Shown piece by piece: positions 23,546 through 25,784 of a stretch of DNA of 53,276 nucleotides. Both the position numbers and the translations under genes were made by a program. This DNA comes from Thermoflexus hugenholtzii JAD2 (GTDB lineage: Bacteria; Chloroflexota; Anaerolineae; Thermoflexales; Thermoflexaceae): positions 1 through 53,276 of the forward strand of contig NZ_FYEK01000029.1 in the NCBI RefSeq assembly GCF_900187885.1, in the 5' to 3' direction. The notes below the pieces were generated by a model. It worked only from the letters and a program-made list of their open reading frames with translations. It ran no database searches and was not told the DNA's origin. Numbering within the stretch: the stretch's first letter is position 1; the number at the start of each line of letters is the position of its first letter.

Positions 23546-24988
23546 ATGCAGATGCTTCGGTGGCGGATCCGCTTATTCGGATGGGAGGCGCTCTGGGGCC
23601 TGATGGCCCTCGGAACAGGCGCGCTGACGCTGCTCGGCCCGGATCCCCGGATCCTCGGGGGGGTCCTCCTGGCCCTCCTTCTGTTCATCGGGATCTTCTG
23701 GGTCCCGGAGGCCGGGCTGGGGCTGGCGCTGATCGCCGGGCCCTTCGCCCCCCTGGAGAACGAGATCGCCCGTCCTCCCCTCAACAGCGCCCAGGTCTTC
23801 CTCGGCCTGGCGCTGCTGGCCTGGACCTGGAGGGGGCTGGCCCGCCGGGATCTGCGCGTCCCCTCCTGGGGTTGGGGATGGGCTTACGGGCTCTACCTGG
23901 GATACATCCTCCTCTCCCTGCTGTGGGCCGCCTCCTGGGAGGAAGGGCTGCCGGAGTGGATCAAGTGGGTCCAGATTGGGCTGGTGGTGATCCTGGTTCG
24001 AACGGCCCAGCCTCCCGTTCAGCGCGGGCTCCTGGGGGCGGCGCTCCTCTCCGGCGCCCTTCAGGCCGGCGTCGGGCTCTGGCAAGCGGTCCTGCGGGGG
24101 ACAGGCCCGGAACACTTCCGCCTCCCTGGGCTCCCCTTCTACCGGGCCTATGGGACCTTCCAGCAGCCCAATCCCTTCGCCGGGATGATGGGGTTGATCG
24201 CCCCGGTGGCCCTGGGGCTGGGATGGAGCCTGTGGCGGGATCCAGAGATGCAGCGTTGGAGGTGGGCCCGGCCTGTCGGGTTGGGCGCGCTGGGGGTGGG
24301 CATTCTGTCCCTCCTCGGCCTGCTGGCCTCGTGGTCCCGGGGGGCGTGGCTGGGGGCTGGGATGGCCGGGCTGGTTTTGTTGCTGATGCTGCCGGCCCGC
24401 GCCCGCCACGGGCTGGCCGTCGGGAGCCTCCTGGTGCTGCTGAGCGCGCTGGCCTGGACCGCCGGGATGATCCCGACGCCGATCCAGGCCCGGCTGGCTG
24501 GGGCCCTGGAGGAGATCCGGGTGATAGATGTGCGGGGGGTGGAGGTGAATGAAGCGAACTTCGCGGTGATCGAGCGGCTGGCCCACTGGCAGGCGGCTGT
24601 GGAGATGTTCCGGGCTCACCCCTGGCTGGGGGTGGGGTTCGGGAACTACGCCGCCGCCTACCCGGCCTACGCGCTGATCCGCTGGCCGAACCCCCTGGGA
24701 CATGCCCACAACATCTATCTGAACGTAGCGGCCGAAACCGGCCTTATCGGGCTGGCCCTCTATCTGCTGCTCTGGGCCGCGATCGGGGCCCGGACCTGGG
24801 CGGCATGGCGGGGAAATGTGGGATGGCGTCGCGGGTTGGCGGCCGGGCTGATGGCCGCCTGGGCGCACTTGCATATCCATCAGATTTTCGATAACCTGTA
24901 TGTGGCCAACCTGCCCCTGCTGCTGGCTCTCTACGGAGCGTGGGCCGAGATCCTGATCTCAGAGGGGAAGCCGGGAAAGAGAGGCTAA
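23546..24988 (+). CDS. O-antigen ligase / Wzy-type polymerase family membrane protein
   Basis: 480 residues with about 11-12 predicted membrane helices. The large periplasmic loop contains WQAAVEMFRAHPWLGVGFGNY and HAHNIYLNVAAETGLIGLALY, the Wzy_C/WaaL signature (H-x-H-N and G-x-x-G). Such enzymes ligate or polymerise lipid-linked oligosaccharides at the outer face of the membrane. The start at 23546 follows the decarboxylase by 33 bases. With the glycosyltransferases and Wzz proteins at 2.2-8.1 kb it could form one Wzy-dependent pathway, but the loci are 15 kb apart and on opposite strands. Confidence 0.88.
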   Translation: MQMLRWRIRLFGWEALWGLMALGTGALTLLGPDPRILGGVLLALLLFIGIFWVPEAGLGLALIAGPFAPLENEIARPPLNSAQVFLGLALLAWTWRGLARRDLRVPSWGWGWAYGLYLGYILLSLLWAASWEEGLPEWIKWVQIGLVVILVRTAQPPVQRGLLGAALLSGALQAGVGLWQAVLRGTGPEHFRLPGLPFYRAYGTFQQPNPFAGMMGLIAPVALGLGWSLWRDPEMQRWRWARPVGLGALGVGILSLLGLLASWSRGAWLGAGMAGLVLLLMLPARARHGLAVGSLLVLLSALAWTAGMIPTPIQARLAGALEEIRVIDVRGVEVNEANFAVIERLAHWQAAVEMFRAHPWLGVGFGNYAAAYPAYALIRWPNPLGHAHNIYLNVAAETGLIGLALYLLLWAAIGARTWAAWRGNVGWRRGLAAGLMAAWAHLHIHQIFDNLYVANLPLLLALYGAWAEILISEGKPGKRG

Positions 24989-25020
24989 GCATTCTGTTCT
25001 CATCTCAGGAGGATCCCATC

Positions 25021-25485
25021 GTGGAGAGAAAAGAGGTCATCCGCTTCGCCGCCATCGATCTCGTCCCCCCGACTTATCGAAAAGAGTTGCGTCGGTTCCT
25101 GAAGTTCTGCGTGGTGGGGACAGTAGGGTTCATTGTGGACACCGGGCTCCTGAACGGGTTGATCTTCCTGGGCGGGGTGATCCCGGTGATCGCCAAGGCG
25201 ATCTCTTTCATCGCCGCGGTGACCAACAATTTCCTGTGGAACCGTTACTGGACTTACCCGGAGTCCCGCTCCAAGCCCCTCTGGCAGCAGATCTCCCAGT
25301 TCTTTGTGGTGAACACCGCGGGACTGGGGATCAACCTGATGGTGTTCGGGACGGCCTCCGCCTTTCTGATCCCCCGTCTGGGGATGAAATGGGGGGTGAA
25401 CCTGTCTCAGATCCTCGCCGTGGGGGTCGCCCTCTTCTGGAATTTCTTTGTGAACCGCTTCTGGACTTTCAACGACGTTCCCTGA
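25021..25485 (+). CDS. GtrA-family membrane protein
   Basis: 154 residues, four membrane helices: KFCVVGTVGFIVDTGLLNGL, VIAKAISFIAAVTNNFLWNRYW, FFVVNTAGLGINLMVFG, and ILAVGVALFWNFFVNRFWTF. The N-terminal F-x-x-V-G and the two N-F-x-x-N-R-x-W-T motifs are classical for GtrA, thought to flip polyprenyl-phosphate sugars. The GTG start (25021) is preferred since AGGAGG lies eight bases upstream. The only polyprenyl-phosphate sugar synthase-like GT2 in the window (7350-8111) would be a natural partner. The selenoprotein gene follows 56 bases downstream. Confidence 0.9.
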   Translation: MERKEVIRFAAIDLVPPTYRKELRRFLKFCVVGTVGFIVDTGLLNGLIFLGGVIPVIAKAISFIAAVTNNFLWNRYWTYPESRSKPLWQQISQFFVVNTAGLGINLMVFGTASAFLIPRLGMKWGVNLSQILAVGVALFWNFFVNRFWTFNDVP

Positions 25486-25541
25486 TCGAGGGAACGGATG
25501 CCAGCTCGAGCGCTAAGAACCTTTCACGCAGGAGGGTAAAG

Positions 25542-25784
25542 ATGCTGCGGGTGGAGATCGAGTATTGCGCGGTCTGAGGGTATCTCCCTCGAGCGGTCAG
25601 GTTGACCGAGGAGCTGTTGAAGGAGTTTGAGGGCCAGGTGGCCTCGTGGACGCTGATTCCCTCCAGCGGGGGCGTCTTCGAGGTCCGGGTGAACGGGGAG
25701 CTGGTGTTCTCGAAGAAGCAGCTGGGGCGTCACGCGGAGGTGGAGGAGATCCGCCAGGCGCTGGCGGCCCGGCTGCGTCCATAA
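25542..25784 (+). CDS. SelW/Rdx-family selenoprotein with in-frame UGA (CxxU motif)
   Basis: An 80-residue thioredoxin-like Rdx (SelW/SelT/SelH) protein read through a UGA at 25575-25577. Before it lies MLRVEIEYCAV; after it, in the same frame, GYLPRAVRLTEELLKEFEG and the family segments LIPSSGGVFEVRVNGELVFS and KKQLGRHAEVEEI. The family redox motif C-x-x-C-G-Y becomes C-A-V-U-G-Y, with Sec exactly at the position used by SelW proteins. The ATG has GGAGGG five bases upstream, whereas a separate start after the UGA (TTG 25602) has no ribosome site. A SECIS-like hairpin sits 22 bases past the UGA. Probable role: thiol-selenol redox chemistry. The alternative is a point mutation or sequencing error of a Cys codon. 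Confidence 0.85.
25587..25611 (+). promoter_or_regulatory. Putative bacterial SECIS element
   Basis: Directly after the UGA the RNA can fold as CCUC-(GAGC bulge)-GGUCA-[GGU]-UGACC-GAGG. The upper stem is five perfect pairs, the lower stem four, and the three-base apical loop starts with G. The loop begins at the 23rd base after UGA. These features match the described bacterial SECIS model (G among the first loop bases, loop about 16-37 bases past UGA). The hairpin lies within the coding sequence, as required in bacteria. Confidence 0.7.

Follow-up and report, generated by a model that had tools for sequence, protein, structure and literature searches.

A putative selenocysteine codon in a SelW-like gene of Thermoflexus hugenholtzii JAD2

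The DNA analyzed here, referred to as the window, was the stretch of 53,276 nucleotides of contig NZ_FYEK01000029.1 from Thermoflexus hugenholtzii JAD2. In this window the standard genetic code cuts a short gene in two at a TGA, one frame running from 25236 to 25577 and ending at this codon, and a TTG-start ORF following at 25602-25784. The question raised by the locus is whether this TGA is a true stop or is read as selenocysteine (Sec). The reading favored by our analysis, with a probability of about 0.97, is that SelB, tRNA-Sec and a SECIS hairpin bring about the insertion of Sec at the UGA of codon 12, within a single-gene unit encoding an Rdx/SelW-like protein with a CxxU redox site.

Reading frame, family and fold

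An earlier note, made from the letters of the sequence, had proposed that the two short frames were a single 80-codon gene of the Rdx family, with Sec at the U position of CxxU, which is the SelW position. When TGA was translated as Sec, the protein obtained was MLRVEIEYCAVUGYLPRAVRLTEELLKEFEGQVASWTLIPSSGGVFEVRVNGELVFSKKQLGRHAEVEEIRQALAARLRP*, and both proposals held. The product of 25542-25784 matched the Rdx profile PF10262 (83.4 bits, E 1.3e-23; cut-off 22.6), and two models of the SelT/SelW/SelH family were also matched, TIGR02174 (71.2 bits, E 6.7e-20; cut-off 34.2) and NF041051 (96.3 bits, E 9.2e-28; cut-off 88). In the two alignments built (A1 and A2), C9 and U/C12 were invariant, and the frame downstream of the TGA was conserved. 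Judged by these profiles and alignments, the protein is a member of the Rdx/SelW-like family with a CxxU motif placed after the first strand. A ribosome site of its own and a terminator right after the stop, both described previously, were recovered as well (Table 1).

Table 1. Features of the SelW-like gene in the window and of selD in the same genome
Feature	Coordinates	Strand	Basis
Rdx/SelW-like selenoprotein gene (predicted)	25542..25784	+	80 codons and TAA stop; family profile matches
Ribosome-binding site AGGAGG, 6 nt 5' of the ATG	25530..25535	+	sequence; duplex with anti-SD -10.8 kcal/mol
Redox motif C-A-V-U (CxxU), codons 9-12	25566..25577	+	translation; alignments A1, A2
In-frame TGA, predicted Sec, codon 12	25575..25577	+	site common to 108 distinct homologues; full Sec machinery in the genome
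Putative bSECIS hairpin: stem CGGTCA (25594-25599) / TGACCG (25603-25608), loop GGT (GGU; 25600-25602)	25594..25608	+	fold, conservation, bSECIS model
Intrinsic-terminator-like hairpin with T-rich tail, after the TAA	25787..25811	+	11-pair stem with 10 G-C pairs; -25.2 kcal/mol
selD, same genome	L017 1405-2454; own genome C12:58065-59000	minus	profile match and in-frame TGA

The AlphaFold2 model built from the window protein and the homologues of the locus reached a pLDDT of 95, and its best PDB matches in Foldseek were the SelW-related structures 2fa8, 3dex, 2obk and 2p0g, with TM scores of about 0.9. The predicted fold is thioredoxin-like and of the SelW type. Among proteins of solved structure, the relatives found by sequence were likewise SelW-related proteins and mouse SelW, whose structure 2npb was matched both by sequence (E 4e-7) and by fold (TM 0.70). 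The nearest named relatives, with identities of 91-99%, were from Candidatus Thermoflexus tengchongensis, Ca. T. japonica, Ca. T. sinensis and Thermoflexus sp. SKYG36, together with one Chloroflexota bacterium bin, in accordance with the assignment of the window to Thermoflexus.

Directly upstream, on the same strand, lie O-antigen ligase (Wzy_C) and GtrA-like genes (23546-25485). Relatives of these two genes were found at the locus in other Thermoflexus genomes only, and in other families the neighbors were different. Since the neighbors differ outside the genus, the context gives no clue to function. The SelW-like gene appears to stand alone.

Selenocysteine machinery and distribution of the TGA form

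The Sec machinery was searched in the same genome as the window, which is 97.7% complete. A tRNA-Sec was detected (78.1 bits; called tRNA-SeC with anticodon tca, that is UCA, by ARAGORN), as were selB (323.6 bits over its frame), selA (559 bits) and selD (379 bits). The selB frame included SelB-wing_2 and SelB-wing_3, the part of SelB that binds SECIS elements. The earlier note had supposed that the host decodes Sec and had named the lack of selB or selC as the observation that would speak against it; both genes were found, and the supposition was upheld. Codon 17 of the selD gene is itself a TGA in frame (SCAGUASK), which makes SelD a second predicted selenoprotein.

Within the same genome, in-frame TGA codons were not found in the molybdopterin oxidoreductases (L154-L158), the superfamily of formate dehydrogenase, nor in the AhpC/TSA peroxiredoxins (L159-L165), nor in the Fe-S_biosyn (HesB-like) gene or genes (L166). 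From these three families, the selenoproteome of Thermoflexus may be very small.

To place the gene among its relatives, 298 genomes of the class to which Thermoflexus belongs were surveyed. An Rdx gene was present in 129, and in 126 of these, spread over many families and genera, it contained one in-frame TGA. The comparison of relatives for Cys or Sec at this site, suggested beforehand, was made with 108 distinct TGA-containing and 13 distinct Cys-containing sequences, and in all 108 the TGA fell at the same CxxU site. Given its presence in 126 genomes and its constant site in these sequences, the in-frame TGA is not a chance occurrence. Only the Cys form was found in three genomes (G153, G135 and G146), and both forms coexisted in three others (G170, G199 and G251).

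The presence of selA and/or tRNA-Sec was observed in 124 of the 126 genomes with a TGA-containing Rdx gene, compared with 139 of the 172 genomes without one (Fisher p 7e-7, to be taken as a guide only because the genomes are related). One of the Cys-only genomes, G146, had neither selA nor tRNA-Sec. Neither marker was found in G132 and G204, the two remaining genomes with TGA-containing genes (L049 and L030, respectively); these assemblies are 86% and 77% complete, and incompleteness is probably the cause. Over the whole class, selA was found in 250 of 298 genomes (about 84%) and tRNA-Sec in 224. With these factors so common, decoding of Sec is the rule in the class and does not set the lineage apart, contrary to what had been anticipated.

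The hairpin downstream of the UGA

A hairpin with a GGU loop after the UGA had been described as a nine-pair stem starting 22 bases downstream. The hairpin and its loop were found, but 22 nt is the distance to the loop, the stem beginning after 16 nt. Likewise, six contiguous pairs were confirmed, but the other three (CCT 25587-25589 with AGG 25609-25611) can be formed only across a four-base bulge and brought no gain in energy (-7.8 kcal/mol either way). The folding energy was -7.8 kcal/mol for 25591-25611 and -6.5 for the bare 15-nt hairpin, and the six pairs formed with a probability of about 0.56-0.85 within a long stretch of mRNA. The published rules for bSECIS elements (PMC13188914) comprise a loop of 3-9 nt with a G within its first two positions, a stem of 4-16 bp, a spacing of 16-37 nt and an MFE of -7.5 or lower. 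The window hairpin agrees with all of them (3-nt loop with G first, 6 bp, 22 nt, -7.8 kcal/mol), which, together with the conservation of the stem in Sec genes described below, bears out the proposal of a bSECIS-type element.

Over the first 48 nt, the window gene folded with a total energy that was ordinary among synonymous variants (fraction 0.18). As a test for SECIS elements this measure was rejected: it did not separate Sec from Cys genes, and for this reason a fixed six-pair stem was tested instead (+19..+24 with +28..+33, the T of TGA being 0) in the 108 TGA and 13 Cys genes. Under the null model, amino acids were fixed and codons redrawn in 400 replicates, which is a simple codon null. 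The Sec genes had on average 5.45 of the six positions paired, against 3.98 under synonymous recoding (replicate maximum 4.21), and the stem was complete in 68 of 108 (63%), against an expected 5%. When one partner was slid by 1-6 nt, at most 3.29 pairs were obtained. The Cys genes had a mean of 2.92 pairs and none of the 13 was fully paired; these counts for Sec and Cys genes are not independent because the sequences are related. The pair +20/+32 was C-G in 86 sequences, T-A in 6 and G-C in 7, the latter being those of Thermoflexus, where both sides of the pair have changed through the third positions of Ala and Thr codons. Read from these codons, the replacement of C-G by G-C is a silent compensatory change.

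Fourteen other genes, mostly with a broken stem at +19..+33, were examined for an alternative register. In most of them a second hairpin was present whose loop, located around +17 to +21 (CGUGA, GUG or CGGGC, for example), agrees with the published limits on loop and spacing; this hairpin was weak in L125 and L126. Most clades have the loop at +22 (..CA-GGU-UG..) and others at +17/18 (..GGGC-CGUGA-GCC..). In the Rdx genes L080, L090, L091, L109, L132, L136, L142 and L151, the hairpin is closer to the UGA by about 4-5 nt and has a CGUGA, GUG or GUU loop. A tentative proposal, to which we give somewhat less than even odds, is that, within this one class, the SECIS hairpin of the gene shifted from one register to another with Sec retained throughout, and that the machinery of Thermoflexus serves little beyond SelD and the SelW-like protein.

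Could the pairing follow merely from protein conservation and codon bias, with no SECIS element at all? The encoded residues (A-V-R/S-L/M-T/A) are indeed conserved and the stretch as a whole folds with unremarkable energy, as such an explanation would have it. Against it stand the excess of complete stems over synonymous expectation, their absence from Cys genes, and the unusual codon choice in the stem region, where AGG encodes Arg in 26 of 41 cases and AGT encodes Ser in 49 of 59, compared with 7% and 5%, respectively, elsewhere in these genes. The other register found in some clades also fits the bSECIS model, and the explanation by protein and codons alone is very improbable. That a near-cognate tRNA inserts Trp or Cys at the TGA, for which no support was found, is more improbable still: the genome encodes a tRNA-Sec with the matching anticodon and a SelB with its SECIS-binding domains, conservation of the hairpin is confined to TGA members, and the Cys members use TGC or TGT.

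The splitting of the frame by standard gene calling is what would be expected if a Cys codon had mutated to a stop in a decayed Rdx gene, or had been misread. The recurrence of this TGA in 126 of 298 genomes of many families and genera refutes such a reading, and the conserved downstream frame and the Sec machinery present also stand against it; a sequencing error is unlikely as close relatives show the TGA too. Taken together, a pseudogene or an error has next to no probability, and Sec is almost certainly inserted at the UGA. A single-gene transcription unit would give rise to an 80-residue Rdx/SelW-like protein of thioredoxin fold; SelB would bind the SECIS hairpin that follows shortly after the UGA in the mRNA and bring Sec-tRNA to this codon, and the Sec at codon 12 would complete a CxxU selenol/thiol redox site. 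The protein would presumably act as a thiol/selenol oxidoreductase.

Relation to known SelW-like proteins and significance

SelW-like proteins were counted in 2006 as one of 25 selenoprotein families of bacteria, when three selenoproteins from Chloroflexi were already listed (PMC1794560), and in 2008 they were the most abundant selenoprotein family in ocean metagenomes (PMC2398784). Sec factors were reported in Anaerolineales in a single-cell study of Chloroflexi in 2016 (PMC4959059). The window gene resembles bacterial SelW-like selenoproteins in size, CxxU motif, thioredoxin-like fold, family core and downstream bSECIS, and differs only in its host; the one paper retrieved that mentions both Thermoflexus and selenocysteine does not report it in the passages located, and the reviews consulted on SelW or Chloroflexi contained nothing of the kind. 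The Cys-form protein 3dex shares fold and family with the window protein but has CxxC in place of CxxU, and the 13 Cys-form genes of our set, unlike the TGA genes, have no SECIS hairpin. Mouse SelW (2npb) belongs to the same family by sequence and fold, with lower similarity. In eukaryotes, the SECIS element on which Sec insertion relies is located in the 3' UTR (PMC12013277), whereas the hairpin here lies just downstream of the UGA.

SelW-like Sec genes are therefore already known in bacteria and common in the class of Thermoflexus, and their biology is known in outline. The analysis restores as one gene a frame that is split by standard calling. Machinery, distribution and SECIS constraint are independent lines that point to the use of Sec in a SelW-like redox protein by Thermoflexus and by much of its class, and these class-wide Sec genes, with their two SECIS registers, may offer a set for studying the evolution of SECIS elements inside a fixed protein sequence.
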